A stretch of 64,000 nt of DNA from Gracilariopsis chorda. Taxonomy: Eukaryota > Rhodophyta > Florideophyceae > Gracilariales > Gracilariaceae. The translations under genes and the position numbers were made by a program. How positions within the stretch are numbered: the stretch's first letter is position 1; every line of letters starts with the position of its first letter. The stretch lies in NCBI GenBank assembly GCA_003194525.1, contig NBIV01000087.1:186001-250000 (forward strand), in the 5' to 3' direction. Under the pieces are notes generated by a model. It saw only the letters and a list, made by a program, of their open reading frames with translations. It made no database searches and was not told where the DNA came from. Of this stretch, positions 11,270-61,634 are shown one piece after another.

Positions 11270-12895
11270 TCAAACTGTCTCAACGTGCTCTCCCAGAAAC
11301 TGGCTGCAATGCTTTTTAACAATTTCCTGCAGCTTGGGGAAGAGCTGTCGTTCTTCCCACAAACCATTGACGTTCAAAGCAAGCCCAGTACGTATCATGG
11401 CTTTGCGGGCGTATGGGAGTCCATCAGAATCTCTCTGCGAATTCACATCTTGAACAGCGAGTTTTACCAGTCGCAAAAAGAAGTACTTTCCGGGATTCTC
11501 CAGCTTCCCAGACTTCGACCACTTTCCGCTGTCAATCATTTCCATTTTATGAGCCTCCCAACGGGTATTCCAAGCCTTCTTAATCTTCTGAATCACAAAT
11601 GAATCCGCCGGCTGCACCAAATGAGTTGCGTTCTTCGGAAAGTATCTAACGTCGGTGTTGATTTCCTTTATGGCCTCCTGGAGATCAGGTGTCATGGCGT
11701 GTACGCTACAATTGTCGACATACAACACTCTTTTCCTGTTGTGCGGCAATTTTCGAATCAATCTCTCCTCCTTGAACCACTGTGGCATCACCGTTGCGTC
11801 CATCCAACCTTTTGGACCAGTTCGATACGCTACGCCTGGTACGTCATCAGGAACATTTCGAACCGGATAGCTTCTTGCTTTGTTCTGGAATACCATGAAC
11901 ATCGGTTCAACACGAGCATCACGTCCCCCGCTAATCCTTACAACCATTGTCATTCCCTCTCCACCAGAAACAACATCCGCATACTTGACTTCACTCTCTC
12001 CACAGAAGCCAAGAGTCTTCCGATTATCCATGTTGATAACAAAGTGCGTTTCATCAGCATTTTCTACATTGTCTTCTTCCAACTCTCCACGTCGAAAGGC
12101 TCTGCACAAAACACCCAGATGATAAGCAACTTCCCTGTGAATGAAATCTTCTTTCAGTGGCGACAGGAGATATTTTCCCGTCAATGAGCGACTCACAATT
12201 CGGAAGCGATCGGTAAAGCCTTGTATCCATCGGCGATTAATGTATTCAGAAATTGGTTTGTTGCAACTGTTCTCGATTTGCGAGCGACTGTATGCAGCAT
12301 TTGCAGAATTTAGGACAAGGTTTATGGCAAGAGAATGCATCGTCTTCCAATTGAACTTGACCCCAAGACGGCGGAGGCGGTCGAACTCACTAACCATATC
12401 GCTCTGAAGTGCTTCAACCCATGGGCGGATTTTTCTTCCTCTTCCTTTCCTTGCTTTTAAATTTACTCTCTTCAGACCCTCATACGTATTTCTGGTGATT
12501 GAAGTTGTAAGATACCTGTCTGCATTTCCTTCTTCGCCGACAAATTGGTGTCGGTTTCGCCAAAGCCGGCTTGCCTTCATCAAGTTTGCCTTCTGCAAGC
12601 TACGGAACATATGTGGGAACTGTTTTACAGCCCTCGATGCAATATGGTTTGATCCGGTTGCTTCTCGTTGTTCTATCATCCAGTGAACAATAGCTATGCG
12701 GTCTTTGATGGTCAGCACGTTGTGCAATTGATGTTTGTTGGCCTTGGATGCTTCTGTCAGTGCACTCTCTTGTGGAGCATTTTGTTGAACATCTGTGTGT
12801 TCCCTTGGGGACAAGATTCTGCTGTTATCTGCTGTGCAATGATATGACTGGTGCTGAAATGCTGCTAATACGGGCGACGCCGTGGTTGGAATCAT
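11270..12895 (-). CDS. Transposase of the Tc1/mariner-like element (DDE endonuclease)
   Basis: The 541-aa product (from the ATG at 12,895) has an N-terminal helix-turn-helix-like region (KDRIAIVHWMIEQRE and SLQKANLMKASRLWRNRHQF) and a DDE nuclease core. The three acidic positions are visible as NADETHFVINMD, LYVDNCSVHAMTPDLQ and HLVQPADSFVIQKIKKAW, so the catalytic triad appears intact as D, D, D. The type resembles DDE-superfamily endonucleases common in oomycetes and algae. The frame has no stop and extends upstream to a TTG at 13,054, so the exact start is uncertain. With intact ends and ORF the element may be recent. Confidence 0.8.
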   Translation of the reverse strand: MIPTTASPVLAAFQHQSYHCTADNSRILSPREHTDVQQNAPQESALTEASKANKHQLHNVLTIKDRIAIVHWMIEQREATGSNHIASRAVKQFPHMFRSLQKANLMKASRLWRNRHQFVGEEGNADRYLTTSITRNTYEGLKRVNLKARKGRGRKIRPWVEALQSDMVSEFDRLRRLGVKFNWKTMHSLAINLVLNSANAAYSRSQIENSCNKPISEYINRRWIQGFTDRFRIVSRSLTGKYLLSPLKEDFIHREVAYHLGVLCRAFRRGELEEDNVENADETHFVINMDNRKTLGFCGESEVKYADVVSGGEGMTMVVRISGGRDARVEPMFMVFQNKARSYPVRNVPDDVPGVAYRTGPKGWMDATVMPQWFKEERLIRKLPHNRKRVLYVDNCSVHAMTPDLQEAIKEINTDVRYFPKNATHLVQPADSFVIQKIKKAWNTRWEAHKMEMIDSGKWSKSGKLENPGKYFFLRLVKLAVQDVNSQRDSDGLPYARKAMIRTGLALNVNGLWEERQLFPKLQEIVKKHCSQFLGEHVETV

Positions 12896-13103
12896 TGGTC
12901 TTGTGCGAACAACGTCTGCTTGTTGCCCAAATTGTGTGTGGACTGCAGAATTCAAACCATGCGGTCTGATAGACGTTACGGTGAAGGTGCCTGCGCGGGA
13001 ATTGTGATGAAAACTGGGTACTGTTTCGGTCGTTAGTGCGCATTTTCGCGCCAATACTCAGGGCCTGTTTTAACAACATTAAATCCTGTGCAATCCTTAT
13101 TAT

Positions 13104-13220: not shown

Positions 13221-13493
13221 TACAGTTCGGAGGCAACGTCAAAATTGTAACCCGGTCCAACGAATCAATTAAATCAGCAGAGTGTGGACCGCAGTTGTAC
13301 ATCAAGAGAATGACTTTCTCCGAAGTTGAATTTCTCAGGAAATGTAAGAATACAATATAAAACCATTTCCTAAATGTCTTTGCGTCCGACCAGGCGTTTG
13401 CTTGGGGGAAGTAGGACATACCTGGTGAGCCTTTTTGGAAGCATCTCGGGTAAGCAGCCTTTCCACTCACAGAAATTGCGATTTTGAGAGTTC

Positions 13494-13951
13494 TGAAGTG
13501 CAACGCCCTCAGAGAGAGATTCTTGGGACTTGGTTGATTTCGCGAATGTTTCGGTAATGTAGTCATTGCATGAACTACGACCACTAATAGTGGATTTGAC
13601 ACGTGGGACATGGAAGAGTTACTTGGCGGTTGGCCACAGTAGTGGGCATGAACCACCAAAGTGGAGTAATTTAGTTAATTCTATTTACTATTTTTACACC
13701 ACCAGTAAACCTTCCCCAACAAGGGACCCCAACCTGCAGAATTGGCTCTAGACCTCACCGCCTTCGCGTGTTCTCTACTCCTCTTTGGAGGGAAGCACCG
13801 TCGCTTACGGGAAGTCTAACCCCCTTGCCTATCTAAAGGACCCGAGTATTCGGATTGTTATTCCAGCTGTCTTGTGGTTCGCCTTGTTTAAGGTTTATTT
13901 ACCGGCACTGCCGTAAGTCTTCGTCACGACACTCGTGACTCAGCTCCCCCT
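13494..13951 (+). repeat. Old, truncated LTR of the chromovirus family
   Basis: The stretch starts TGAAGTGCAACGCCCTCAG like the other LTR copies, then follows the LTR for about 458 bases before stopping abruptly where the intact 5' LTR begins at 13,952. It is more diverged than the other copies and lacks a 45-base segment with a 10-bp hairpin that they share. It cuts into the DDE_1 transposase remnant on its left side. Confidence 0.8.
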
Positions 13952-14776
13952 TGAAGTGCAACGCCCTCAGGGATGGATTCTTGGTACATGAATGCTTTCC
14001 CGATATTATCGGTTGTGTAGTGTGTATATGAACTACGCCCCACTATGGTGGATATGGACACGTGGGACACGGTTTTGGGTCAATTGGAGGTTGGCCACAG
14101 TAGTGGATGTTGCCACGAAATGTGGAGTATTTTAGTTGATATTATTTATTATTTTCACACCCATTTCTGGGAAGCTAGTACTTAGTGCGACGGCGCACTG
14201 CCGTCGCACCAGTAAACCCTCCCCAACAAGGGATCCCAACCTGGGGAATTGGCTCTAGTTATTACCGCTTGCGCGCGTGCTCTACTCCGCCTTGGAGGGA
14301 AACGCCGTTACCCACGGGACATCTAACCCCCTTGCACATCTACTGATACCCATCAATGGGAGTCATATTATTCCAATTGAATTGGTGTTTCGCCCTGTAT
14401 AGGGATATTGTTACCGGCATCGCTGCTCGCCCCCGTCGCTCTCGCGACTCACTCCGTCCTCTCTTCCTCCTCTACGCCCTTCCTTTTCCCCCGTTCTAGG
14501 GTTGCATCTCCCGCTATCCGCGGCCCTCGTGTGCGCATCCGCTCGCACACCTCCACTTACGTGGAAACCTACCTCTGGCAAGGATGCTTTCCCGCTCTCG
14601 CGGATACCGATTCTTGTCCTAAACCCTCTTGCGCTAGTCGCGAAGGGTGGCCTCGGTCCTACAAACCGGCTCCGCCGTGCCACCCCTAGAGGGGCTCTAG
14701 CAAACTGGGTTCACCTCATGAGAGGAAGATCCCGAACGTCTTTCGGTGTTTTTCCCCTTTGGGGCATTCCACCACA
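13952..14776 (+). repeat. 5' LTR of the chromovirus
   Basis: Starts TGAAGTGCAACG and ends CACCACA (TG...CA). It contains a perfect hairpin with 10-bp arms GTGCGACGGC/GCCGTCGCAC at 14,185-14,209, an AT-rich stretch at about 14,140-14,157 that could serve as TATA, and smaller stem-loops at 14,349-14,360, 14,373-14,385 and 14,435-14,448. Three bases after the LTR, TGGTCTCCCGACC at 14,780 has the TGG start expected of a tRNA primer-binding site; the tRNA was not identified. Confidence 0.88.
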
Positions 14777-14880
14777 AAGTGGTCTCCCGACCTAGAATCG
14801 GTTTTTGTTTTCCCTCTTACGAGGTTTGTTTTCATTCACCGGAAGTTCCGTGATCGTTCCTGTCGTAACGGTATTTTCTC

Positions 14881-16875
14881 ATGTCGAGAAATCCCTCCGA
14901 CGCGGAGCCAGTGGTTACGCGTAGTCGCTCCCGTGACAACGTGGACACTTCCGAAGTTCGGTTAGTACCCCGTATCCCTATACGGACAAGTTCCAGCCGT
15001 ACTGGCGCCGCTTCATTGCGGAATGATACCCCCGACCGGGAACCCCGGAACCTCCTTTTGCCCTCGTTATCACACCCGCAGGGGAATGCAGCATCGACTC
15101 CGGCTGTTGCCGCAGTGCCCCAGGCACCCCGCCCCGCTCCCGCTGTCGCGGCTTCAAGCCCCCGTGGAACGGGCGATAACAACCCCCAGGGGACTTCCCT
15201 GGAATCCCAGGTCCGCGCTCTGTGGACCGCCCATGACACCCTTGTAGGGGAACTAAAATCCCTCCAAGAGGTGGTCTTGGCAACCCCTGTAAAGGAGGTC
15301 GCCGAGGAACTCCGCATTTTACGGTCTGACGTCAACTCCGTGTTGGAGAGTTTGGGACAAACCGCCACCTTCATCGAAGGAGTTGAAGCCCGATTTGATC
15401 GGATTGGTGCCCGCCTGGAGACGCTGGAGCAGTTCGTCCTCATGGACTAACCATTCCCGGATGATCCGGTAAACGAGGCATCGCACAACGACCAGCTTGC
15501 TGGGAAGAAGAAACGCCGTCATCGACGGAAACACCACCGAAAATGTTCGGACTCCGATTCTTCGACATCGTCGGACTCATCCCGAAACCATTCGGTTAGC
15601 TCGAGCTCCTCGGACTCCGACTCGGAGGACGAGAAGCGAGGCTACTCCTCCCGCTCGAAGCGGTCATCGGCCACTGAAGGGGTGGTCCGAACCCGCCAGA
15701 AGGGGAGAAGACACCCCGGTCTTCGGGAATTGAAACCGACAAACCCGGATTACCGGAAGCTTTTATCATACCGGTACTACTGGCTCGAAGACTCGTCACT
15801 TGGACGTACGCCCCGTGGTACGGGAAAGGTGCGAGAATGCATTAAGCGAATGCAGCTCTCGCTCCGCAACCAGTATTTTACTAGAGAGGACCCAGTCCTA
15901 GTACTGGATTTCCTATCCCGCTTTGTAGCGGAAGCTGATATCCTCGGTATGAATGAGGGACAAGCCTATTTGGCTTTACCGTATTTCTTACGGGGAATGG
16001 CGGAGGACCAATACAACTCTGTCAGAGGATCTTTTCGTGCCTCCGAGGGAGGATTTACTTGCTGGCCGGAGGCTGTGCAGTATCTACTGCGCTCCTACGC
16101 CACAAACACCGCTATTCAGCAGGCTATCCTCGCTTTGCGAGATACACGCCAGCGTGCTGGAGAGACCGAGACCGATTACTCGGTGCGCCTTAACAAGGCT
16201 TTCCACAGATGTGGTAACGTATACCCCGCTGGGGAGTGCAGTACCATGTTCATTGATGGTCTTGACCCGGCAATCCGGAGTTTAGTTACCCGTTATCGGG
16301 ATGACAAGCGGAGGATCACCTACCTCGGGCTGGTCCAACACGCCCGAGCGGAAGGGGATGCATTTCATGCAAGAACTCCGAACAATCGGTCTAAATCCGC
16401 CAAGGCGTTGTTGCTGGAAAGCGAAGCTTCCTCACTCCCGCTCACCGCGGATGGGAACCCTGGACAGGGATTTGATACCGTGCATTTGGTGCAGGAGGAT
16501 GGTGTGTCGATACCCACCAGTGATTTACCGTCAACGACGGAGATGACCCGTGATTCGGGAACGGAAGACCCCGTTTATTACGGTGGTAACAGTCGGGTTC
16601 AACCCCAACGACTGCCGTTTTCAAACGGTCAATCCCGTTATCAACGGCCTGGGTGGACTGACACCCGACCTGCGGTTCGCTTCTCCGATACTCGGAATAA
16701 TAATCCGCGTGTCGCGGTATTGGCTCTCATTTGCCACCTGTGCTATGCCCATGGCCATACCTTACCTCAGTGTATTTGTTCACTGAAGGATATGGCCGAG
16801 GTGGTGGCAAATTATGAGGCCCTCACTCCAGAGGAGAAACGTTCCGTCCCGACGGCTTCCTACCTCCCGTGCTAA
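14881..16875 (+). pseudogene. gag of the chromovirus (one in-frame stop)
   Basis: One frame runs from the ATG at 14,881 to TAA at 16,873-16,875, broken only by TAA at 15,448-15,450. The first 189 codons are Ser/Pro-rich and end in a predicted coiled coil (VKEVAEELRILRSDVNSVLE). Right after the stop the frame reads a Lys/Arg/His-rich basic cluster and a Ser/Asp run, then the retrotransposon Gag core (YFLRGMAEDQYNSVRG, then AFHRCGNVYPAGEC). It closes with a CCHC zinc knuckle, CHLCYAHGHTLPQC. Continuity on both sides of the TAA shows a single ancestral gag. Whether the stop is a mutation or a recoding site is open; mutation is more likely because pol carries stops too. Confidence 0.85.
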
Positions 16876-17211
16876 AACGGACTTTTCCCATGCCCTACCA
16901 CAGACCCCGCGTGCGCGGCAAGCTTCATACACCCCGATTCGGGAGATCACGCAACCATCCGTTTCAACTCCCGCTTATGCGGATAGAAACCCCCGTCAAC
17001 GGGACGAAGCACTCGTTGTCGAGGAAGCCAACCCACCGCCGAAGGCGGAAAACTAACTGAGGGAGTCTCCCCTTTGGGAGAGGCGTCCTCAAGAACGAGG
17101 CTGTTGGCGCCCGAGGCGTCCTCGCCTCGCTCCCCGTTGAAAGTCCTCTCGAGGAAAGACACCGCTGACGCGGACTCTGCGCATCTCGGTGTGTTGCGTC
17201 GCCCGTGAATA

Positions 17212-20200
17212 CGGAGTAAAAATCCCCGGATTCCCGGTAGAGTCTTGGTCTTGGCTAAACGCAATTATAAGGTCTATGCCGACCTTGGCCTTGATCCCCA
17301 GTTTATGGTGAGGTTTCTCACCGTCCTGGATACAGGTGCAGGCCCCAACTTTGTTGTGGAATCATTGTTACCCCCGCTTGTGCGGTCTCGTATCCGCTCT
17401 GAGGCGGTCCCCGACATTTCGGATGCGAACAACTATCCGTTACAAACGGTGGGCACAGTGGGCCTCGTCGTGAGACTTGGTACCTCTGTGGTGAAGTTGG
17501 ACTTCATCGTTTGCCGTTCACTGGCAGCACCAGTCCTACTGGGATGTGATTACTGCGACAGATTTGTCGACGCAATCAGGCCCCGCCTCAGGCGTGTAGA
17601 ACTTGACGACGGATCGTCGGTTCCGATTATTCGCCGCCCGCTAAAGCGGTCCTCTCGGAAACAAGTTCCGCTCCCTGCTGCGCAGGAACCACCGCCCGCG
17701 TCCCGCGAGTCCACCAAGCTCCGCGTCGCTGCCTCGGTTTCTATACCGGCTGAGTCCCAAGTCTGGGTGGAGGTAAATTTCTGTCAACACGGTCTTCGGG
17801 TTATACAACCCCTCGCCTCGTTGTACGAGAAATCCCAGCTGGCGCTGGCTAATGGAATTGTCTCCATTTCCCCGGATGTTCCTTTCCGGATATTGGTTGC
17901 CAACCTTGGCAAACACCCCCAGTATCTCGTAAAACACCAAGTAATTGGGAGTGTAACCCCCCATCCTATGGGAATGCTGCCAACGAAGATGACAGCCGCC
18001 GATGTACTCGGAGTTACCACCTCTTCTGAGGAGTTCGCCCCGCCGTCCGAAGACGTCAAGTCTAAGGAGGGGGAGGAAACCGCTACTTCAGCGTCGAACA
18101 TACCGAGTAACTCGGAATTGCGAACCACACCTGTTCCACAGGACAATGCTCCATCGAGCAACGACCGGATTGATCTGGAAAAAGCACTTGAAGCGCTGGA
18201 CTTTAGCCACGTGCCAGAGTCGCACCGCGACAAACTCCGTACCATGTTACGGGAATTCACCACGATTTGGGATGGCTCGCTTGGCGAGATTAACGCAACG
18301 GAACACCGGATCGATTTAATCCCCGGTGCGCGACCGGTTGCACAACCCCCTCACAGGACAGGTCCGAAAGCTCGGGAAGCGGAGCAGTCCGAAGTGGACA
18401 AGATGCTCCGCGCAGGTGTGATTGAGCCCGCTCAATCACCCTGGGCATCCCCAGTTGTACTGGCTTTAAAGGCCGACGGAACCTGGAGGTTCTATGTCGA
18501 CTACCGCCGGCTCAATGCCGTGACAGTTAGGGACACGTACCCTATCCCTCGTATGGACGAGTGCATTGACTCCCTTGGAGACGCCACCGTGTTCACAGCC
18601 CTTGATGCCCATTGGGGATATTGGCAAGTACCTGTTAGACAGGAGGATCGCGACAAAACCGCATTCACCTGCCACGCAGGAACGTACCGCTTCAAGCGGA
18701 TGCCATTTGGGTTAACCAACGCCCCCGCCACCTTTCAGCGTGCAGTAGATATTCTACTCAACCGCTTTAAGTGGCGGAGTCGTCTGGTCTACCTTGCTGA
18801 TATTATCATCTTCTCCAACTCGTTGGACGACCATCTCACTCACGTCCGAGACGTGCTGACCGTACTCCGCGATGCGGGAACTACCCTCAAGTTGAGGAAA
18901 TGCGAGTTTTTCACGGATACTGTGAAGTATCTGGGTCACATTATCCGTCCTGGACGGTTAGCGATCGAGAAAGCTCGAGTCAAATCCCCCGTCGAGGCGA
19001 AAGAGCCCCGTACTCAAACGGAACTGCGCTCCTTTCTGGGGCTGGTCAACGTCTATCGACGGTTTATCCCGAACTTTTCGCATACTGCAGCGCCCCTGAA
19101 CGCGTTGTTGCGAAAGGGGAACCCCCCAAAACTGGGAACATTTACGCCCGAGCAATCCGAAGCCTTCAACTCTTTAAAGGAGGCTGTCACATCAGCACCA
19201 ATGCTACATCTCCCAAAACTTGGGTTGCCATACTCCGTAGATACGGACTCGAGCGACTACCAAGTCGGGTGTGCTCTTTTTCAAACCACCCTCGAGGGGG
19301 AACGACATCTAATTGGTTATTGGTCGCGCTCGCTCAATGTTCATGAGCGGAACTACTCCGTATCGGAGAAAGAGTGCCTCGCCGTCGTATGGGCGATAAC
19401 CACTCTGCGCCCCTACCTTATGGGAATTCACTTCACCGTGTACACGGATCATTCCTCATTGAGGTGGTTGATGAATATCTCCGACCCGTCGGGACGCCTC
19501 ATGCGCTGGAGACTCCACCTCGCGGAATATGACTTTCAAGTCATTTATAAAAAGGGCGCGCAGAACACCCAAGCCGACGCTCTGTCGCAGTTACCCAAAA
19601 GTGGGGAAGCACTCCCAACGGAGGATGATGAAGTCCCATGTTTCATGGCCATAGACCCGGATGATCCGGAATGTGCCGTCGAGGCTGGGCCAGAAAACTG
19701 GGACGAGGATGCTGACTTTGACGAACTACTCGCATCGCGAGATAAATCTGAGAACCCGTTACCGGGAAACTTTGTACCGGTATCACCGGAAGAAATGATC
19801 CGAGAACAATTCGGCGACCCATTCTGTACGAGAATTCGTGCCCGTATCAACGGTGGTGAAGATCTCCCTTTCGGGGTAAACGACAAAGGCTACCTCGTAA
19901 GAAAGGTCGAAGCCCGCCCACAGATTGTGGTACCACATTCCCTGCAATCGCGGGTGTTACATCTATCACACTACGCCCCCATCAGAGGTCACCCAGGTGG
20001 GAGGAAACTCTACCTAACCCTGCGAAGGGATTTCTATTGGCCCTCCATGGCGATGGATTGCTACGCAACTGTGCGGTTCTGTAGCGAATGCGCGAAGAAT
20101 CGCGTCAAGCTCCGCAAAAATGCGAAGAAGATGAAACTATTCCCCGCAAGGGCGCCGCTCAAGTTTATCGCGATCGATATTCTCGGACCACTACTCACCA

Positions 20201-22518
20201 CGAAACGTGGAAACAAGTTTCTACTTGTCATTACCGACCGCTTTTCTAAGCTGGTACGGACTGTCCCTCTTCGGAGGATAACCGCTCTCACGGTGGCCCA
20301 GGCTCTGGTGACGCACTAGATTTTTGTCTACGGTCCCCCTGTGGAGGTGCTCTCCGATAACGGGAAACAGTTCGTGAGCAAGTTCTTCCAGGATGTTTGT
20401 CGGATCCTGGATGTCAAGAACTTGTTCACGACTACCTACCACCCCCAGTGTAATGGGCAAGTTGAACGGTTTAACCGGACATTACTCGCGGCGTTACGTT
20501 CCTACGTCGCTGAACACCCAACGAATTAGGATCTCTACGCTGATGCGGTAACCTACGCGTACAATACGCAGGTACACCGGACTACCGGAGTTTCACCATT
20601 CGAGTTGGTTCTATCTAGAACACCCCCGCCTGTGGCGCTGGAACCCCAAGCTACCTTGGACAATTTCCCATCCGTGGGTATCTACCGGCAGCAATGGAAG
20701 CAATGGCTTTCCAAGCTGGTCCCCGCTGCGCGGAAGTCTATGGCACGGGCCCAAGCCGCTTACAAGCGGGATTTTGACGCTCGCTTGCGAGGAAAGACCC
20801 CCCCGATTCGGGCAAATAACTACGTCTTCATCAGGAAGGAGTACTACAACCCGGAACGGGAGAAGCGTCACAAACTCTCGCCTGTGGCGGATGGACCCTT
20901 CAAGGTCATCTCTGTTAATGCCGACACTGTCGTTGTAGAGATAGGTGGAGCACACGAGCGGATCTCCCGCGATCGTGTCGTACTCGCCCCCCCTCCCTCC
21001 TCAAAGGTAATCCTGGATTCAGAACATCACGTTTCTACGGACTCTGCAACACCGGAATCCTCCGGGAGTACTAGGCCTACGGTACTACCACACCCCAGCC
21101 GGGGACTCTCAGACCTACCGACCCTGTCGGACTCACCGGCTCCGCCGGGTAATTCGGGCCTCTCAGCGCCCGCCCCCCTGGCGCGAATTTACACCCGCCA
21201 GGCGGGGAATGTTATCCCTTATCCCGCCGCTCCGTCTAAGAAGGGGGAGGAGAACACTCGTTTTCGAGGAACGATATCGCCGTCGCAACGGGAAGTTGAA
21301 ATGCAGCTACCGCACACCCCTGTCAGGGAAGGATCCCCGTTACGGGAGTACGGCGACGATCGCCCTCAATCCCCTGAGCAGGGCGATGCCTCGAAGCCGC
21401 CGTTGGCGGAAGCCCCCGCGGAAGCGGTTCAATCAGGCCAATCAGACCCGCGCCTTGCGGAGAAGAGGCGCCCAGATACACCAGCGCCGCTGGTATATCC
21501 CCACACCCAACCTGGGGAAAAAGGCAGCCAAGCCGCAGCCGAAACTTCAGGCCCTGGCCTGCAAGCGCCGGAAACGCCTCCCGTCGTCGACGGAATTGAA
21601 GCCCCCGTTCCGAGGAATAATGTGCGCCACCTCCCGCAACGCTGCGGGGAAGAACCGGGGAACTCGGAAAAAGCGCACGCCATCGCACGCTCGAAACCGG
21701 TCATACCGGACGCTGCTCCTCCGCGTGGAGACAGTGCACCGCATTTAGCGGCCAAGCCCCTGAAAAGGGTGTCATCGGCACCTGCCCGGCACCCCCCAAA
21801 GGGGAATTTTGACCAAAATACCGGTGTACCGGAGTTAGCCCCAGGCAACCCGTCAGTACCCGGGGACACCACGGCATCGCCGGAACGTATGGTGCAGAGC
21901 GCTCGTGCGCCTGGCAGGGAAGCGGTTTGCCACCCAATCACCGTGTCGCACGGGACCCCCCCGGGGATTGTGGAAATGCCGATCCCGCAGGAGCGGTCAT
22001 CTTCCCGCAAACTCGCGGTTCGTGAGCTCAACCGCGAAGGCGGAGCCCAAGTCCCCCGCCGACTGGCGGTTCGCCCGCATTACCGCGAAAGCGGAAATGA
22101 ACCTGCCCTAATGGAGAATGACTTGCCGGTGAAAACCGTGGCACCACACACCCTCTTGAGGGATATCTTCCCGCATGAGCAGCAGCCGCTATCACAGCGC
22201 ACGGCAACGCCGGAGTTATCGCCGAACACCCTGCTAAGGGACAATATACCGCACAGCGGGCAGCCCCCGCAAGGAAGTACAACCACCACCCGGCACGGCC
22301 GGCAGGGCTACGAACGAGAGTTCGTAGTAGACCGACTTGTCGGACACACCTGGGACCAGGATGGTATTCTACAATACCGCGTCCGCTGGTACGGGTACGA
22401 CCCCAGTGGGGATACGTGGGAGCCAATTGAACACCTCCCACGGTCGCAGGTCCTGCGATACCACCGTCATACGGGAACTGCAGCCCCAGCCACGCTGGTT
22501 AATGCCCAAGTTGGGTAA
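17212..22518 (+). pseudogene. pol of the chromovirus: protease, RT, RNase H, integrase, chromodomain (two stops)
   Basis: The frame is open from about 17,212, with TAG at 20,317-20,319 and 20,527-20,529, and ends with TAA at 22,516-22,518. Order: aspartic protease (VLDTGAGPNFVVE, LLGCDY); RT with VDYRRLNAV and FKRMPFGLTNAPATFQ; RNase H with SVDTDSSDY and YTDHSSLRWL; integrase zinc finger and catalytic core; a long Pro-rich spacer; chromodomain at 22,305-22,450 (REFVVDRLVG, then YRVRWYGYDPSGDTWEP). Both stops fall where related elements have Trp, consistent with TGG to TAG changes. The RT catalytic box reads YLADI instead of YxDD, which should abolish polymerisation. Between gag's stop (16,875) and 17,212 no clear coding frame is seen, so how pol was expressed is unknown. 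Confidence 0.9.
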
Positions 22519-22709
22519 CGTTGCCGCGCGAGCGGAGAGCGATAGGAAAGGATAACAAGGCAAGGTCCGTCGAAGACGGGGAACTTAACCGAGAAGAACC
22601 GTTCTAAACGGGAAAGTTTATTCAAGGGAGCAGCTAGCTCCCCACAATACTACACTACACTAACTGACATAGCCAGGGAAAGAAGAACCAAGAAACTGAA
22701 CTAGAGGTT

Positions 22710-24497
22710 TCACTCACCCTCATGGTCCCGGGCGTAACCACCAGCGAGGCGGTAGGCCAACGCGTCCGCCATGGTGGTGACATCCCCCGATATCTCGGCA
22801 GTGCTAAGACCCACCCCCCGGAGAAAACGTGCGATGATTTCGTTTTCATTCGCCGTCACCCCGCTGGGGATAGAAGGTCCGGCACTTGCCGCCGAAGGGT
22901 CAGCAGCCGGCTCGGCCGGAGATGCCCCCTCTGGGAAAGCTTCCGCGCTAGCGCCGGTTTCCTCTACGTCCATCTCCCCGGGTTCTTCCGGTTCGTTATC
23001 GACCATTGGGTCATCCCCGCCGTATGCGCGGTAGTAGTCGTCGGAATCGACGTACCCCACCGGGTGGTCTTCCAGCACATGCCGGGGCGTATCGCGAAGC
23101 TCGCGCGCCTCCTCGGAGGAAATTTCCCGGAACTCCCAGGGGTCGAAGTAGATATAATCCCCCGCAAGGGCGGTGTTTCTACCGAGTCCCGGACCACCGG
23201 TGCTACCGCTGCCGCCATCGAGACGACCGCTTTGCTCCAGCGGGACCTCACTCCAGCTAACGCTGTCGATGTACCCAAGTAATTGGAGGACCTCTTCATT
23301 GTTGGCCTGGCCCCCAAGGGGGATGCGAAGATCCAGGTTTCGGATCGCTGCCCACACACGCGGTTGAAGGAACCAGAGACGATACTGGTCGTACGCCTCG
23401 TTGAGGATATAAGCCGCACTGCAGGCCGCCCACTCCGTAACCACTACGGACCACAACCCCGACCGGGGATCCTGCATGAGCAGCGAACCGAGGTACGTAA
23501 GTACCGGCGGGAGTTCTATGTAGCACCCCCGGCAGGCTTCATGGAAGCGCCACCACTCGGGGAGTGCTACATACCGACCTAGTCGGTGAGGCGGCGCAAT
23601 CCGCTCTATCTCCAAGTTCTGATACGGGATAAAATACCCGAATCGGGATCGCCAACGCCGCTCGTAGCGGATGAATCGTTGGAGAAAGTTGGACCGGTAT
23701 TGCCGGGGAAGGTACCTGAACTCCGCCCGAATAATCGGTCGCTCCCAGCAAAGGGCCTCTTGCCGCGCTGCGGGGAAATTCCTCCAAGTGAGGGTCTCGA
23801 GGCGGAACAGGTTCTCGCCGTACCCAATCTCCCCTCGAGTGCGGAAGTAGCTAACGTCGAAGCCAAACTCCGGTGGGACCGGTACATCGAATGGAGCCCG
23901 GCTCTGCCGTTGGTACGCCATGCGCGTCAACGCGGTCTGCGCTGCAGCGACGGTCTCGCCCGAGTTTTTTCGGAGGTGGTGACGCGGAATCGCAATCCGG
24001 TGACGCCAATCCCACGATGTGGTGACTGCTCTGGGCAGATCCCCCGGAAGGGTGTCTGAGCCATCCGCATAAGCGGTGACCAATCCCTCATTGAGGACAG
24101 CGACCGGGTGGAACCACGAGGCAAAGCGCAGGCGCGACGCGTGATTCCGATTCATCGGGTTGAGCCCCACCAGGGTGTTGTAGGTTGGCCAATTGAACGC
24201 CGGAGTGGTTCCGGAGGACACCACCGAAGGTGGTAGTGCGAAGGGATGGTCGGCTGCAGCAGCCATATTCCCCGGTTGTACCGGATGTCGATCGCCCTGA
24301 GGCACGGGAACTGACCGGAAACCGGTGGTGTATCGCCCGAGAAGCCTCGGAGGCTGGCTGTGGTTGTTGATGTTGTTGTCGTCGTTCATTTCTCCCTTGT
24401 CGAGGATGGCTGTTGTTGTCGTTTGTGCGCTTGGTGACTCTGATGCAGAGGGATTTACCGGAGAACCGGAGACAGAGCACGCGCTTTTATCACCCAT
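22710..24497 (-). CDS. Antisense 595-aa ORF of unknown function inside the chromovirus
   Basis: An uninterrupted ORF runs opposite to gag-pol between the chromodomain stop and the polypurine tract, from ATG at 24,497 to TGA at 22,710. Its layout looks protein-like rather than accidental: a Ser/Thr/Asn-rich N-terminus (about 1-70), a central Trp/Tyr/Arg/Phe-rich folded-looking region (about 95-420, e.g. LPEWWRFHEACRGCYIELPP and LWFLQPRVWAAIRNLDLRIP), and an acidic, Pro/Glu-rich tail (about 440-560). No known domain is recognised. Some plant gypsy elements are known to carry extra ORFs at this position, including antisense ones. It is intact although gag and pol of the same copy are broken. Confidence 0.7.
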   Translation of the reverse strand: MGDKSACSVSGSPVNPSASESPSAQTTTTAILDKGEMNDDNNINNHSQPPRLLGRYTTGFRSVPVPQGDRHPVQPGNMAAAADHPFALPPSVVSSGTTPAFNWPTYNTLVGLNPMNRNHASRLRFASWFHPVAVLNEGLVTAYADGSDTLPGDLPRAVTTSWDWRHRIAIPRHHLRKNSGETVAAAQTALTRMAYQRQSRAPFDVPVPPEFGFDVSYFRTRGEIGYGENLFRLETLTWRNFPAARQEALCWERPIIRAEFRYLPRQYRSNFLQRFIRYERRWRSRFGYFIPYQNLEIERIAPPHRLGRYVALPEWWRFHEACRGCYIELPPVLTYLGSLLMQDPRSGLWSVVVTEWAACSAAYILNEAYDQYRLWFLQPRVWAAIRNLDLRIPLGGQANNEEVLQLLGYIDSVSWSEVPLEQSGRLDGGSGSTGGPGLGRNTALAGDYIYFDPWEFREISSEEARELRDTPRHVLEDHPVGYVDSDDYYRAYGGDDPMVDNEPEEPGEMDVEETGASAEAFPEGASPAEPAADPSAASAGPSIPSGVTANENEIIARFLRGVGLSTAEISGDVTTMADALAYRLAGGYARDHEGE

Positions 24498-24541
24498 TTT
24501 CGTCTGGGAATCCTCCGCGTCCGTGGTCGTTTTCCCGTCTT

Positions 24542-24551
24542 AGGGGGGGGA
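24542..24551 (+). other. Polypurine tract
   Basis: AGGGGGGGGA ends two bases before the TG start of the 3' LTR, the expected place for the plus-strand primer. Confidence 0.75.
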
Positions 24552-24553
24552 TA

Positions 24554-25378
24554 TGAAGTGCAACGCCCTCAGGGAGGGATTCTAGGTACTTGATCGTTTT
24601 CCCGATATTATCGGTTGTGTAGTGTGTATATGAACTACGCCCCACTATGGTGGGTATGGACACGTGGGACACGGTTTTGGGTCAATTGGCGGTTGGCCAC
24701 AGTAGTGGATGTTGCCTCGAAATGTGGAGTATTTTAGCTAATATTATTTATTATTTTCACACCCATTTCTGGGAAGCTAGTACTTAGTGCGACGGCGCAC
24801 TGCCGTCGCACCAGTAAACCTTCCCCAACAAGGGACCCCAACCTGAGGAATTGGCTATAGTTGTTGCCGCTTGCGCGCGTACTCTACTCCTCCTTGGAGA
24901 GAAACGCCGTAAACCACGGGACATGTAACCCCCTTGCACATCTAAAGAAGCCCATCCTTGGGAGTACAATTGTTCCAATTGCATTGGTGTTTCGCCCTGT
25001 ATAGGGATATTGTTACCAGCATCGCCGTTCGCCCCCGTCACTCTCGCGACTCACTTCGTCCTCTCTTCCTCCTCTTCGCCCTTCCGTTTCCCCTTTTTAG
25101 GGTAGCACCTCCCGCTATCCGCGGCCCTCGTGTGCGCATCCGCTCACACACCCCCCAATTACGTGGAAACATACCTCTACTGAGGATCACACCCCGCTCA
25201 CGCGGATACCGATTCTTCGCCTTCACCTCCCTGCGCGAGTCGTGACAGGTGTCCCTGGTCTTACAAACCGGCTTCGCCGTAACACCTCTGGGAGGGCTCT
25301 ACCCAACTGGGTTCACTTCGTGAGAGGAAGATCCCGAACGTCTTTCGGTGTTTTTCCCCTTTGGCGCATTGCACCATA
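24554..25378 (+). repeat. 3' LTR of the chromovirus
   Basis: Same 825-base length as the 5' LTR, beginning TGAAGTGCAACG; its last bases read CACCATA rather than CACCACA, so the terminal CA is mutated. The shared hairpin lies at 24,787-24,811. The PIF1-like helicase remnant begins at once after it. Confidence 0.88.
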
Positions 25379-25394
25379 ACAATACCGAGATAGA

Positions 25395-27626
25395 ATGGGA
25401 GAGTCTGAAAGACGCAACACACAAGGACGAGCGGGGACACGGAAGACCTATCTCCTATCTTTGCTGAGATATATTGTTGAGCATGAAGGCTTATTGGTGC
25501 AGATGACAGCCACAACAGGTATTGCTGCTGCCCTATATGAAGGCGGAAGAACTTTGCATAGTTTGCTTGGATTGGGAGGTGATGACAACAAAGATTCGCA
25601 GAGTAGAGAGCGTCGGACACTTTCCAAGTACGGACCACAATCACAGAGAGCAGAACTAGTACGGAAGACTATTTTGCTGGTAATTGATGAAGCTTCAATG
25701 TGCCCGAAAATGCTCTTCGACATTGTGAACACCGTACTGAAGAACTTAAGAAACTCTACGAAAGACTTTGGAGGCATGGTCGTAGTTATGGCAAGCGATT
25801 GTATGCAACTGCTTCCAGTCGTTCCAAGAACAAGAACAGTATCCGAAAGGGATGGAACAATTCGTGTTATTCCAGTGAGTTTCCTACGGGAGCTGCCATG
25901 GTACTCTTGTGTGGTGCAATGCCCCAAAGGGGAAAAACACCGAAAGACGTTCGGGATCTTCCTCTCAAGAGGTGAACCCAGTTGGGTAGAGCCCTCCCAG
26001 AGGTGTCACGGCGAAGCCGGTTTGTAAGACCAGGGACACCTGTCGCGACTCGCGCAGGGAGGTGAAGGCGAAGAATCGGTATCCGCGTGAGCGGGGTGTG
26101 ATCCTCAGTAGAGGTATGTTTCCACGTAAGTGGGGGTGTGTGAGCGGATGCGCACACGAGGGCCGCGGATAGCGGGAGGTGCTACCCTAAAAAGGGGAAA
26201 AAGGAAGGACGAAGTGGGTCGCGAGAGCGACGAGCAGATACGGCAATGCCGGTGGACAGGACTCCCTATACAGGGCGAAACACCAATATGATTGGAACAA
26301 TTAGTACTCCCAATGATGGGTCTCCTTTAGATGTGCAAGGGGGGTGAACTTCCGTACACTACGGTGCTTCCCTCCAAGGAGGAGTTGAGAACACGCGGAG
26401 GCGGTAAAGCTCAGAGCCAATTCCCCAGGTTGGGGTCCCTTGTTGGGGAAGGTTTACTGGTGCGACGGCAGTGCGCCGTCGCACTAAGTACTAGCTTCCC
26501 AGAAATGGGTGTGAAAATAATAAATAATATTAGCTAAAATACTCCACATTTCGTGGCAACATCCACTACTGTGTCCAACCGCCAATTGACCCAAAACCGT
26601 GTCCCACGTGTCCATATCCACCATAGTGGGGCGTAGTTCATATACACACTACACAACCGATAATATCGGGAAAGCGTTCAAGTACCCAGAATCCCTCCCT
26701 GAGGGCGTTGCACTTCATCTTGCGAGCTTTGGGACAGAACAGTCAAGGTTCTTCGCCTTACAGAACAGGTTCGTTACCAAGATGATACAGTTTTTGCAAA
26801 AGGTTTGCTCACTCTTGGTCGTGGGACGTTTCCAGCATCAGCAAGGCTTCCGCTTATGTCTATGTCAGATTTACACGAAGCATACAATTTGCTTTGGAAA
26901 TGGTTTACAACACGGAGGAAAGAAGATGTCAAGCTCAACCGATTGATTGTTGCGCCAAAAAACCAATTAGTGGAGGAACATAACCAGAACGCATTGGAGT
27001 ATTTCCCAGGAAGGATTTTTGACTTGAAATCTGCAACGACGATCGTTCCAAACCGAGGGCCAACCGGTGAAAAATTTCACACAAATAGTATCATTGGACC
27101 TGAACTGACGTATAAGTAAGCTCCAACTGGAGTCCCGCACCACCATTTGAAACTGATATTGGGTGTTCCTGTTATGGTGATTCGAAATTTACTTCATCCG
27201 CACTTGCTGAATGGAAAGCTTTTTATCGTTACCAGCATTTGTCGCAGAGTGATTCGACTTTCGGGCATTGATGAACATGGGGAAAGTCAGCAAAGCTTTT
27301 TACTGCACCGCATTGAGTTTTTTTTCGAGTTTACAGATGTGAAAATCAAACGTCGACAGTTTCCCATCAGATTGGAATTTGCAGCAATTTTGCATAAAGA
27401 GCAAGGACAAATGCTGAAGTAAATGAAAATTTACTTTCAAACCAATTTTTTTGTGCCGGGTCATGTCTATGTTGGACTTTTGCGTGTCCGAACATCTAAT
27501 GATGTGTTACTGCTCCATAGTGAAGACAAGACGCCTCGAAATGCGCAGGATTTCCATCCAATGCCGGTGAGCATCAAAAACCCTGGTTTACAAGAAGCTG
27601 TAGACTTTGTAGAGTGGCATCATTAG
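25395..27626 (+). pseudogene. PIF1-like helicase remnant (probably Helitron-derived), split by a solo LTR
   Basis: The first part (25,395-25,909) has a degraded Walker A (GRAGTRKTY for GxGGTGKT), TATTGIAAALYEGGRTLHSLLGL, a Walker B-like LVIDEASMCPKMLFD and the next motif. After the inserted LTR the frame resumes with ELWDRTVKVLRLTEQVRYQDD, NRLIVAPKN, LKLILGVPVMVIRNL, RRQFPIRLEFAAILHKEQGQ and VYVGLLRVRT, all in PIF1 order. Stops occur at 27,117-27,119 and 27,420-27,422. The sequence fits the helicase half of a Helitron transposase, but the Rep half is not present, so a stand-alone PIF1-like gene cannot be excluded. Removing the LTR and one TCTTG copy restores the frame exactly at the junction. 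Confidence 0.82.
25910..26717 (-). mobile_element. Solo LTR of the chromovirus family, inverted, with TCTTG duplication
   Basis: The 808-base copy reads TGTGGTGCAATG at its left end and CACTTCA at its right, the reverse complement of the LTR termini. The direct repeats TCTTG at 25,905-25,909 and 26,718-26,722 are its target duplication. No internal element sequence is present, so it is a solo LTR left by LTR-LTR recombination. It also fixes the true family LTR ends as TGAAG...CCACA. Confidence 0.92.
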
Positions 27627-27725: not shown

Positions 27726-27860
27726 TTTTCCTTGTTTAACATAACGATAAGTAGTGAGAACTTGACAACGTGTGGCTCCGGCTTTTTGTATAATTACCCC
27801 ATTTGTAGAATTACCCCGCCAAGAGGATTAACCCTTTAACTGTGCCTTTGCGCACTTTAC

Positions 27861-46609: not shown

Positions 46610-47727
46610 AGTTGGTGATCATGTGCCACAAATTGTTCTTTCGCTTCTTCTCTGACAACTCACCCGCTGTAGCCAGTTGTGGAAGAAAACGGCAGTAAAC
46701 AGGCTACATGCTTGTGTTTATTCGGATCTGTTTACTTCGAGGATTTCGTCGAGACAACCACCAAGTGCAATACCAGATTTCTTGGTGCTAACACTCGTTT
46801 GTTCAAGTGCACTGATTTTGTTGACACTTCGTTCATAATGATGACAATCAGGACCCAAGATGCATTCCACGGGCGTCTCTCAAGAACACCGTGTTAGTAA
46901 TAGATCGTACCCTACCCGCTTGGTTCGCAGGCTCAAGTAGAACGAATGCGCAGAATGACATCGTCTTGCACTTGGATATTGTATTGTACGCAACTTAATT
47001 CGCCGTGTGCGGACGTGTTCGGTTCTTTGCGCGCGGACGTGGCACTGAGTTCTGTGTTAATCAACGAGATTGAGGGTAAATCGACGATGGACCTATCATT
47101 CAAGCACTAGTCCAATTTCACGTGTACGCTTTGAAAACATCGCGGCGTGAAGCTTTCTGTCAGTATACGAACTATCTTCGCCGATTGCGCCACACACCGG
47201 CCTCCCAGACCGCATCATAGTGCAAGATTTCCAATGCACTCCAAGACGGACACGGGGAAGAGCGCATCGTGCCAGCGCCTTGACAGTCTCGCCACAGAAT
47301 GCGCATGGAAACCCGCATTGCAAGTCAGTTTCTCGGCTTTGCATAACCCAAGGGTATCTGTAGGTTACACGCACTTTGAATGCTGTTGGGATGTATGCTC
47401 ACAACTTTCGCCCTGTATCGAAGAAAGACATCGTCTCTGTTCTGTCAGCATGAACCGATGCCCGATCCCAAACTTCTATTTCAGGCGCTGCCGGACTTCC
47501 GCAGTCCTTCTCCCCTCGACCTCCTTCTCACCGCCTACCTTCTCTGCCTTTCCAGCTTCTTGCTAGCCAACAAGTTTTGTCCTATCGACGGGAACCTCGT
47601 GGACTATTGCGCGTTCTTCTTTCCTCTCTCACCAATCACTTTTGCTCGCGAATTGAATCTCTTACTCGGTTCTTCTCGATCTGTTTGTATCTACTTTTGT
47701 CACCTTAGTTTGTTTATCACGGGCAAG
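46610..47727. other. Intergenic region before the Hint-domain gene
   Basis: About 1.1 kb without a recognisable gene. The frame of the Hint gene is open back to about 47,380, but that part lacks a signal-peptide-like beginning and is probably 5' UTR and promoter. Confidence 0.35.
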
Positions 47728-49323
47728 ATGACGAACAAAGTCTTTTGTGTTATCCTCTCCATCATCTTAAGTGTTGTTTCTTCTGCGGTTGTTTCGAAAG
47801 ACCGAGGTACTTCAAAGTATCCTCCTCTTCTAGTTGATCCTCCCCGCTCTCTTTATATCCCGACTACCGCCCGTCAACTACATGAGAGCACCCTCCTAGA
47901 CATAAATATGCATGTTGCTTCAGAATCCCTGACTGACAGCCAGTGTGGTGGAAGCACCGTTCTTCACGAAGCAGTTGCCTTCTGCAATACGTCTAGAGTC
48001 GGACTACAAGGTGTGTCCATCTTACCTCATGCCTCTATTGTGCACGATGGAAATCGATGCGGTACAGGTGACCCTCTGGACTACACTCACGTTGTTCCGG
48101 CCGCATTGCTAATCGATGGAAGAACCGCCTCCCTCAGCGGGGTTGGTCCGTTGTACAATAGGTTATCTGCAAACGCAAGGGCGTTCAACGCGTTTGGCGT
48201 TCTCAACGACCTTGCCCCCGTGTACGTCGGCTTTGAGTTTAGCAACTCGCGTGTGTGTGGCGGTAATGTCGTTTACCCGCAAGGCACTATTTATATCTTT
48301 ATCAGGACGCGCCCAGATGCAAGCGACCTGAACTTCGGTTTTGCATACTTGGGAGCTGCAGAATTGGGCATGGTTACTGTGAAGGACGATGAACAACTGT
48401 GCCTCTACAAAGAAACAAGGAAGCTAGCGCCAGGACAGTCTCCTCTATCCACCCCGACACCGTCGCCGACGGGCGTTCCAAGGATGCCTCAGGACACTTT
48501 CATCCTGGAAAATGCGCCAGAACTAGCAAGGAACTGCTTCCCACTTAGGGGCTTCAACACGACGCGCACTGGGCCTCAACCGACCGACCTGCCAGGCCCT
48601 ACTGCGAGCCCATCGGCTTCGCCTACAATCTCAGTTACGCCGTCGGTGACTCCTTCGAATGTTCCGACCCCGTCGCCGAGTCCTTCAATGCAGGTGTCAC
48701 CGTCCCCTAGCCCCTCGCCGAGCAATACGATTGAAGGTGGCGGAGAAGCAACGCCTGAAGCTGATGAGGACGACAGTGTGTGCTTCCCTGAGAGTGCCCA
48801 CGTGGAGCTGGAATGTGGGGAGGTGAAGGCAATTGGGGATATTAGCATTGGAGACAGAGTGCTGGTGAGTGGAAGAGCGTACTCTGAAGTTTACCTGTTC
48901 ACACATCGAGACAGCAATGTGTTGTATAACTTTTATCGGATTAAGGTATCCTCTGGGGCGGTGATCTCTCTAACGAGTACACACTACATTCCGGTTGACG
49001 GGAGATTGAAGACGGCTGAGAGTGTGCATGTGGGAGATGTGCTGACGTTGGGCAACGGGACGTTTGATGTGGTAACTGGGATCGACAGGCAGCACATGCG
49101 AGGGTTGTTCAACCCGCACACTTTGGAGGGCACGATTGTGGTGGATGGAATTGTAGCGTCGACGTTCACGAAAACAGTTATGCCAAGTGTGGGTGAAGCA
49201 CTTTTGGCACCGATTCGAATGATGTTCAAGTGGCGGATGTTTGACGGGCTGCTCGGAGCGATGTTCAAAGAGGGCAACTCAATGTTGGTGAGATATGTGC
49301 CGCGTGGCGGTGCGTTGTGGTAG
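47728..49323 (+). CDS. Secreted protein with C-terminal Hint (hedgehog/intein) domain
   Basis: The 531-aa product starts with a signal peptide (MTNKVFCVILSIILSVVSSA), followed by a Cys-containing N-terminal domain of unknown type (about 40-270), a Ser/Pro/Thr linker (about 280-340), and a Hint module from Cys352 to near the end. Hint evidence: CFPESAHVELECGEVKAIGDISIGDRVL (residues 352-379) with the leading Cys, the block-B LTSTHYIPV with Thr416 and His419 in the T-x-x-H arrangement, a second VGDVLTL turn, and VVDGIVASTF, like the end of hedgehog Hint domains (VVASCY). In hedgehogs this module cuts itself from the N-terminal part through a thioester. Self-processing is plausible here; a lipid or sterol adduct is not shown. 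The ATG at 47,728 is chosen because it begins the signal peptide. Confidence 0.82.
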   Translation: MTNKVFCVILSIILSVVSSAVVSKDRGTSKYPPLLVDPPRSLYIPTTARQLHESTLLDINMHVASESLTDSQCGGSTVLHEAVAFCNTSRVGLQGVSILPHASIVHDGNRCGTGDPLDYTHVVPAALLIDGRTASLSGVGPLYNRLSANARAFNAFGVLNDLAPVYVGFEFSNSRVCGGNVVYPQGTIYIFIRTRPDASDLNFGFAYLGAAELGMVTVKDDEQLCLYKETRKLAPGQSPLSTPTPSPTGVPRMPQDTFILENAPELARNCFPLRGFNTTRTGPQPTDLPGPTASPSASPTISVTPSVTPSNVPTPSPSPSMQVSPSPSPSPSNTIEGGGEATPEADEDDSVCFPESAHVELECGEVKAIGDISIGDRVLVSGRAYSEVYLFTHRDSNVLYNFYRIKVSSGAVISLTSTHYIPVDGRLKTAESVHVGDVLTLGNGTFDVVTGIDRQHMRGLFNPHTLEGTIVVDGIVASTFTKTVMPSVGEALLAPIRMMFKWRMFDGLLGAMFKEGNSMLVRYVPRGGALW

Positions 49324-57538: not shown

Positions 57539-57785
57539 GGCTTCAATGCATGGCACGGGCGATGAGGGATCCAGTTGGTGGGGTTTCATTTCGTTTGCGC
57601 CAATAACTTACGAGAAAGTTATTGGGTATGTGGTGGGGCGGTTCCATGGTTTCATGAAAAGCCATCCACCCATAGCACCGTACACGGTACCGAGTTCCCG
57701 ATATGGTGAGCTCGTGACCGAAGGTGGAGTCAATCACACCTTGGGTTTCTGTTGGTACATTTTCAAGAGGTTGTATTACGTTCCC

Positions 57786-60700: not shown

Positions 60701-61634
60701 ACTCCACGAACCAAGTCGATACGGTGTTGCGTGGCCTTAATCAACTCTAGATGGTCTGACCACATGCCATTGAACGGATTAAATAGGTCCAGAATGCCGT
60801 CCTCACAAGATTTTCCTTCGAACCCTATGGTTACTTCCTCTTTTCAGTTGGTATTTACGTCCTGTGTCGATGTTGCTTTGGCATTTGGCGGCATGGTTGA
60901 GTTCTTGTTTTCCGCAGTTGATTTCCCTCCTCCTTAAGATGGAATTCTCCGGGTGACCTTTATGTTGTCAGGGTAAATATGCTACCCGGAGCAGTAGATT
61001 CGATTCCAACAACGGTGTTTTGGGATAATTTGACCATATGGTTGCTGAAGTTGCTTAAGCATACCTGAAAGGTTTGAGTTGGTATATTTTCCAATATTTC
61101 GTTTGCCATCATCTTCATCTGGCGTTCCAATACCTTAGGGTGGGTTTCTAGTGTTATAAAACCCGGTCGGTCGCATACCACTTTGGCTGCCACTTGGTGC
61201 ATGGGCGGAACTCGAATGGACTTCGTCAATCGAACCTTATTGGATACTGTCACTGACGTAATTTCCTGTCTCTCTTCTGATGCAGTTCTCGATTTTTGAC
61301 TACCTAAAATGGCGATTCATGGACCCTTCCGGAACAAAACCGTTCTGGTACCAGGCGAAACTGCCCGGACATAGTTTTTTACGAATTTAGTTCCAAGAAA
61401 ACAATCTGTCGCCAATTGGTTGATCATGACAAACTGTACCCAGACCTTACGGTTTCCTAAGGCTACCGTTAGGTATACACTTCCACGGACCGCTAATGGT
61501 CGTTTATTTGCATCCACCAAAGGGTTTGTGATGGTACTCGGTCGTAACCTTTCCAATACCTTTGGGGTTAGGAAATTCGCATTAACCAGGTTCTGTCCAG
61601 CTCTCTCATCTCCGATGGCGGTGCACGGAACCAA
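57786..61634 (-). pseudogene. pol remnant of a second Ty3/gypsy element
   Basis: Minus-strand pieces in gypsy order: protease-like (61,317-61,634; ALGNRKVWVQFVMI, CFLGTKFVKNY), RT fingers and palm (60,310-60,765; FLIDYRILNAVSVRDSYPIS), RT with catalytic box YIDEV instead of YIDDV (59,851-60,297), RNase H (59,450-59,749), integrase zinc finger and core (58,653-59,450 and 58,125-58,637), and a GPYEVIRADDHT module at about 58,060-58,100. Stops and frameshifts separate nearly every piece. It is related to, but clearly different from, the chromovirus at 13,952, and no chromodomain was seen after the integrase. Confidence 0.85.

Follow-up and report, generated by a model that had tools for sequence, protein, structure and literature searches.

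In the red alga Gracilariopsis chorda, one clade of chromoviruses is densely set with short, perfect hairpins of stereotyped shape, roughly one per 60 bases, that run through coding sequence and long terminal repeats (LTRs) alike. We describe this trait from one 11.4-kb Ty3/gypsy chromovirus copy lying in a stretch of 64,000 nucleotides (GenBank assembly GCA_003194525.1, contig NBIV01000087.1, positions 186,001 to 250,000 of the forward strand), here termed the window, in whose numbering all positions below are given, and from its relatives elsewhere in the genome. An initial annotation, made from the letters alone, had pointed out the density of stems in this element. That observation is confirmed as real and is stronger than first noted; what goes beyond it is a CC/GG stem base, a fixed stem length, a strand asymmetry and the clade-wide occurrence of the trait. 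The hairpins may have been selected as dispersed protein-docking sites on the sense RNA.

All 16 stems singled out in the initial annotation hold up as perfect inverted repeats whose arms measure 5 bp or more; several pair further inward and leave loops of 1–2. When stems (arm ≥5, loop 3–8) are counted along the window in 2-kb bins, there are 20–39 per 2 kb across 14–26 kb and 4–15 in most other bins; dense bins outside that range are 1–2 kb (19), 26–28 kb (23, containing an inverted LTR of the same family), 42–44 kb (26) and 52–54 kb (21). The excess of inverted repeats covers spacers 1–6 and peaks at spacer 3, with 7.5/kb against about 1 expected; spacer profiles of direct, mirror and complement repeats have no comparable peak.

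Stem density exceeds codon-preserving shuffles in all four open reading frames (ORFs) of the element: 30 against 6.6 in gag (z 9.5), 64 against 16.0 in pol (z 12.2), 36 against 11.5 in the ORF ending in a chromodomain (IN-chromo, z 6.8) and 29 against 10.1 in an antisense ORF (z 6.4). Under stricter shuffles, in which codons are swapped only between like neighbours, the element ORFs still reach z 6.3–10.2. The initial annotation had not noticed such density in host genes or in a second gypsy element of the window, and the counts agree: eight other window ORFs show no excess over codon-preserving shuffles (z −1.5 to 1.1), and strict modules (defined below) in the second gypsy element number 1 against 1.2 expected. 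The supposition that stems are made through synonymous codon choice largely holds too, because the excess stands above codon shuffles and conserved pol codons are little altered in arms: 1/33 of them deviate in arms, 2/9 in loops, 0/11 in mixed positions and 27/300 outside. Folding energies, computed for the coding parts only in 240-nt windows, lie below sequence-order controls along the element, the effect being modest (mean sense z against codon shuffles −2.4 for gag, −1.7 for pol, −1.0 for IN-chromo and −0.8 for the antisense ORF; −0.1 to 0.4 for three other ORFs).

Sorted by outermost bases, the bulk of the excess sits in CC..GG stems. With a CC base, arm 4/loop 4 stems occur at 4.90/kb and arm 5/loop 3 stems at 3.50/kb, each against 0.03/kb in window positions 27842–64000; no class of stems with a GG, A or T base reaches 1/kb, and stems whose outer C is not part of a CC account for about one fifth of the two main classes. 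The module is written 5'-CC-N2-n4-N2-GG-3' or 5'-CC-N3-n3-N3-GG-3', with unpaired flanks and, on the sense strand, often an A after it. Stems of classes 5+2 and 6+1 may be these hairpins with one more pair gained by chance, and arms of more than 6 bp are no commoner than background. We use a strict definition, requiring unpaired flanks and one of four arm-loop classes, and a looser one admitting seven arm-loop classes. Looser modules number 197 in the element, covering 2425 bases, against 26 in 36 kb of the other window sequence. The window holds 212 strict modules, 169 in the element (14.8/kb), 17 in the inverted LTR, 6 in a related LTR upstream and 20 elsewhere, so that 192/212 belong to the element and the two related LTRs; none lies in the 533-base interval that separates the inverted LTR from the 3' LTR.

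The modules are oriented. An A follows the module in 99 of the 197 cases and a T precedes it in 30 (p 8e-10), and the asymmetry recurs in the antisense-ORF region (14 against 5 of 31), where it follows the sense strand of the element, and in both LTRs (16 against 5 of 30). It flips in the inverted LTR (A after in 3, T before in 12 of 19) and flips on minus-strand loci too. Flank bases pair in 13/197 modules, a count in which C.G pairs are partly absorbed by the choice of module. In family A, to which the window element belongs, loop composition is near random, and an apical-loop recognition motif, as in MS2, was sought and not seen.

The modules also keep their distance. Spacing was tested on the window element, family B, and families C and A2 together; L003 and L052, being further family A copies, are not independent. 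Pooled, gaps of 0–2 nt are found once against 14.0 in random placement, gaps of 3–5 nt 10 times against 16.1, and gaps of 6–8 nt 35 times against 15.2. Each set behaves alike at 0–2 nt (1 against 8.7 in the window element, 0 against 2.4 in B, 0 against 2.9 in C+A2) and at 6–8 nt (16 against 9.4, 9 against 2.7 and 10 against 3.1, respectively).

A search of the genome (91.3 Mb) scored at least 45 pol copies and yielded 30 loci of family A (L001–L030) with 13.0–17.3 strict modules/kb. Densities are 6.5–7.3 in family B (L041–L044), 11.5 in C (L045) and 16.3 in A2 (L047); relatives of the second gypsy element (L031–L040) have 0.5–1.0, and L046, L048, L049 and L050 have 0–0.9. The A-after-module orientation is shared by loci of families A, A2, B and C. 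Families D, E, F and G, which are more remote (53–68% amino acid identity to protein P0001 over aligned stretches), have the hairpin shape too and vary in its base: CC-base modules reach 8.7/kb in G, 4.2 in F, and 3.3 and 2.9 in E, with almost none in D (0 and 0.8). The 4-bp arm of family D favours G at both ends (30 and 27 of 56), in family E a G closes the stem in 36/69 and the loop begins with A in 38/69, and in family F the C is shifted to positions 2 and 3. Orientation in the 4+4 class likewise varies: A after 17, T before 24, T after 23 and A before 9 in family D (n = 56), A after 32 and T before 12 of 69 in family E, and no clear asymmetry, on small counts, in F and G.

A count blind to bases (4–5 bp stem, loop 3–5, unpaired flanks) was set against codon shuffles. 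Ten loci of nine families (A, A2, B, C, D, D2, E with two loci, F and G) give z 4.0–12.1, and six loci from other gypsy families show no excess (z 0.3–1.2); these 16 loci are representatives picked from match lists, not a census. In a FastTree phylogeny of pol, hairpin loci and hairpin-free loci separate. The hairpin trait belongs to one chromovirus clade, with a stem base that differs in some families.

Comparison between families indicates that the stems have been kept. Modules share an aligned place much more often than shifted controls do: in 18/38 cases between A and C (shift control 0.14), 9/47 between A and B (0.19) and 9/14 between A and A2 (0.24). Arms of A are wholly unchanged in C for 20/41 modules (0.149 of control windows) and those of C in A for 20/28 (0.134); the figures are 10/38 for A in B (0.076), 10/16 for B in A, 9/15 for B in C and 9/24 for C in B. 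With controls of same shape and same phase, overall at 0.07–0.15, arms among A, B and C are unchanged three to eight times as often as such windows, and loop differences are about equal to or above the control middles. Where two families encode the same residue, the third codon position differs between A and C in 26/90 cases in arms, 21/37 in loops and 189/451 outside; between A and A2 in 6/29, 8/13 and 72/187; between C and B in 23/56, 12/21 and 246/473; and between A and B, where there is little contrast, in 51/108, 18/42 and 314/585. Compensatory pairs occur, for example CCGCT/AGCGG to CCGTT/AACGG. Modules with gapped alignment were dropped from the same-place, arm-conservation, compensatory, covariation and LTR comparisons, and the compensatory comparison was also made without modules in stretches below 0.55 identity.

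Within family A, mutations in inserted copies fall evenly. Across 29 copies, singletons per site are 0.112 in the CC/GG clamp, 0.122 in the inner stem, 0.111 in the loop and 0.099 outside; variants in at least three copies, small in number, are rarer at arm sites (4/434) than at loop (5/171) or outside sites (49/2369). Variants in exactly two copies (clamp 2, inner 5, loop 3, outside 55) were left out of both classes, and L017, whose match is one codon shorter, was dropped from the singleton and copy comparisons. Since arms are conserved between families and singletons are even across sites, it appears that the hairpins are maintained as long as an element is active and decay neutrally thereafter. 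The 5' and 3' LTRs were not used as evidence of maintenance, their stem divergence fitting neutral decay when modules are defined in one copy.

Several features together suggest that a molecule reading one strand recognises the modules: their stereotyped shape and preferred base, the unpaired edges, the spacing and, for A and its closest kin, the single orientation. Module edges and minimum distances are what a docked protein would need, and a copying error would not obviously produce them. Our preferred reading, to which we give slightly less than even weight, is that the hairpins have been selected as dispersed protein-docking sites on the sense RNA, with Gag the likeliest candidate binder. 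The genomic RNA of the clade would be tiled with hairpins of 4–5 bp stem and 3–5 nt loop, offering many weak, redundant putative docking sites to a protein responsible for coating or selecting sense RNA. Gag is the first candidate because its CCHC motif is conserved and the nucleocapsid domain of Ty3 Gag is needed for packaging; in an alignment of 15 Gag sequences (P0003 and 14 of its 55 matches), the first three residues of the motif are nearly invariant and the last is invariant. Because the stem base varies between families, a self-recognition code is suggested, by which each family would package or condense its own RNA. That fuller proposal, a genome-long, family-specific hairpin code that would let each family's capsid protein pick out and coat the RNA of that family among many co-resident relatives, with nearly 200 hairpins per RNA, we hold more tentatively and regard as possible though doubtful.

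Several observations weigh against docking sites on RNA. The A-after-GG asymmetry is not clade-wide: D departs from it, and at the small counts of F and G it is not clear. The hairpins are weak (mean −4.1 kcal/mol), and in a context of about 160 nt their pair probability is 0.39 in sense and 0.37 in antisense; for 35 chance hairpins elsewhere the values are 0.27 and 0.34. Stems show no preference for G.U over A.C, though a role in RNA would allow G.U (counts of clamp mismatches, confounded by C.A flanks, were not used). Four-fold sites differ more often in loops than outside between A and C (14/17 against 107/235) and between A and A2 (6/8 against 35/92); between A and B loops are not faster (10/19 against 179/310). 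Covariation exceeds that of slid pairings modestly: where both partners of a pair have changed, 20/38 are Watson-Crick, against 60/192 in slid controls (summed totals of comparisons that are not independent). To maintain nearly 200 weak sites in each element by selection is, moreover, demanding.

Mutational drive, the main rival, is the reading to which the fast loops speak. If the reverse transcriptase of the clade, or some stage of its cycle, copies one arm of a small quasi-palindrome from the other, hairpins would accumulate and repair themselves while being useless. Such a process would suit a trait that is clade-specific although several gypsy clades share the nucleus, that has no G.U bias, and that affects coding, antisense and LTR sequence together, and family-specific sequence preference could be enzyme preference. 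Since loops outpace other silent sites in two of three comparisons, a drive borne by reverse transcription stays alive. It would not predict that arms of more than 6 bp stay at background, that flank pairing is rare and not random, or that modules hold a minimum distance, and on balance we judge it unlikely. A signal at the DNA level, with palindromes acting in double- or single-stranded DNA (a cruciform, a cDNA hairpin, or a site for a chromatin or integration factor), seems to us distinctly improbable: a double-stranded site has no reason for one orientation, yet the coding, antisense-ORF and LTR parts of family A follow the sense strand, and arbitrary inner pairs require the strand to fold back. 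In its favour, a palindrome serves both strands, there is no wobble preference, LTRs bear stems too, and D, F and G lack a common A-after-GG orientation; a variant is that the hairpins may have a role in minus-strand cDNA.

Generic RNA folding, for genome-scale structure, silencing evasion or stability, could draw on the folding energies below codon shuffles in gag, pol, IN-chromo and the antisense ORF. Against it, mainly one stem base is enriched in family A with no equal enrichment of GG..CC stems, which would have supported it; flank pairing, which would stabilise, is rare; and 0.41 of the hairpins exceed probability 0.5 in context. We give this explanation little credence. Among the causes offered by the initial annotation, then, selection on nucleic-acid structure stands as the better explanation; generic folding and silencing evasion are unsupported as stated, because one stem base and length dominate, flank pairing is rare and G.U is not preferred, and a mutational process is weakened. 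An artefact of composition, codon usage or search is scarcely credible. The GC content of the element (0.53–0.60) is slightly higher than in much of the window, and neither codon-preserving shuffles, gypsy controls of the same genome nor shape-matched windows reproduce the excess; composition and codon bias were rejected on the codon-shuffle excess and on the gypsy control loci without one.

Persistent RNA viruses have genome-scale ordered RNA structure with genome-wide excess folding; the algal element shares the excess folding, and the viral structure has no fixed short module with a sequence-defined base. Nearer in form are the dispersed packaging signals of MS2 and other single-stranded RNA viruses, parechovirus and STNV among them, where many genomic stem-loops are held to bind coat protein collectively, the MS2 recognition motif being an apical loop plus a bulge (PMC6281560). 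Both systems have many short stem-loops beyond chance across genomic RNA. In the algal element, in contrast, stem base and shape are shared and loops are free, there are nearly 200 per element, and the carrier is an LTR retroelement, its LTRs included; for the algal hairpins coat binding is a proposal. As family A has no MS2-like loop motif, we do not file the hairpins as dispersed packaging signals, though by analogy they may work like them. Ty3 belongs to the same element superfamily and has a Gag with a CCHC motif; its nucleocapsid has one CCHC finger, needed for RNA packaging, and the consulted portion of a review of Ty1 and Ty3 calls Gag-binding sites ‘not precisely defined’ and does not mention hairpin tiling (PMC4974528). 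Nematomorph mitochondria likewise have inverted repeats imposed on coding sequence with the protein kept (PMC6649704), but these are long (to 284 bp) and mitochondrial, and those of the algal element mostly span 11–14 nt, are stereotyped and lie in a retroelement. Among the titles and abstract openings listed in searches of an open-licence library, in which subscription journals are mostly missing, none described such a retroelement code.

The element is a Ty3/gypsy chromovirus, with reverse transcriptase (RT), RNase H, an integrase zinc-binding domain, a C-terminal chromodomain and flanking LTRs (Table 1); Pfam identifies RVT_1, RT_RNaseH, Integrase_H2C2 and Chromo among its ORFs. For the two ORFs scanned Pfam listed no integrase core, because this copy has an interrupted frame between 20319 and 20605. 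The RT at 18796–18798 reads YLAD rather than catalytic YxDD; 28/28 other compared copies have YLDD. The two LTRs are about 89% identical, the differences (about 11%) being more numerous in the second half, in which the 3' LTR is similar to the inverted solo LTR. The element ends showed no matching target duplication, and the element may be a recombinant or converted copy. A G-rich tract directly precedes the 3' LTR; the primer site was not matched to a tRNA. A longer LTR palindrome, with 10-bp arms and a 5-nt loop, lies at 14185–14209 and 24787–24811; three LTRs carry it unchanged, and the related LTR upstream lacks it. Proteins of the element match records of Agarophyton, Gracilariopsis and Gracilaria, a search of viral contigs gave no relatives, and an Rfam scan of 13400–27000 gave nothing at gathering score. 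Predicted structures were set aside, the mean pLDDT (predicted local distance difference test) being 53 for Gag, which is too weak, and 30 for the antisense ORF.

Table 1. The chromovirus copy, its parts, related LTRs and example modules in the window
Feature	Position	Strand	Remarks
Ty3/gypsy chromovirus copy with hairpin array	13952..25378	+	11.4 kb
5' LTR	13952..14776	+	16 CC..GG modules
3' LTR	24554..25378	+	14 modules
gag ORF	15682..16875	+	C-x2-C-x4-H-x4-C motif
pol ORF: RT, RNase H, integrase zinc-binding domain	17245..20319	+	
ORF with chromodomain at its end	20605..22518	+	
Antisense ORF, 595 aa	22710..24497	-	without Pfam match
Inverted solo LTR, same family as the element	25912..26717	-	17 strict modules, flank asymmetry reversed
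Related LTR, partial, ~69% identical	13494..13951	+	6 strict modules
Example module CCGCT-tca-AGCGG	18687..18699	+	aligned family B site is CCGTT-tca-AACGG
Example module CCAGT-tgt-ACTGG	18451..18463	+	families B and C keep the stem
LTR module CCAAT-tga-ATTGG	14373..14385	+	other loop in 3' LTR and solo LTR

The antisense ORF is conserved in related elements: it has at least 74 copies in the genome at 93–100% identity, 57 of the 74 listed being without internal stops, and its relatives are in Gracilariopsis chorda and Gracilaria domingensis. It is 52% identical in family B, and one hairpin-free family has a distant match (23–28%), on which ground the ORF was rejected as sole determinant of the hairpins. 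The second gypsy element (57597–60921, minus strand) matches the first in fragments of 36–41% identity and has no hairpin excess. Other ORFs of the window include one at 47380–49323 (plus strand) with a C-terminal Hint module (PF01079) and one at 11270–13054 (minus strand) with a DDE_1 endonuclease domain, which adjoins the retroelement cluster.

For the selection and condensation of RNA by LTR retrotransposons, these hairpins offer a candidate code readable from sequence alone, with controls built into one genome: families with different stem bases and families without excess. If the binder is Gag, the clade would let dispersed recognition of RNA be tested in a retroelement. Should the cause be mutational, a process of reverse transcription would be writing stereotyped hairpins into genes; either outcome would be surprising.

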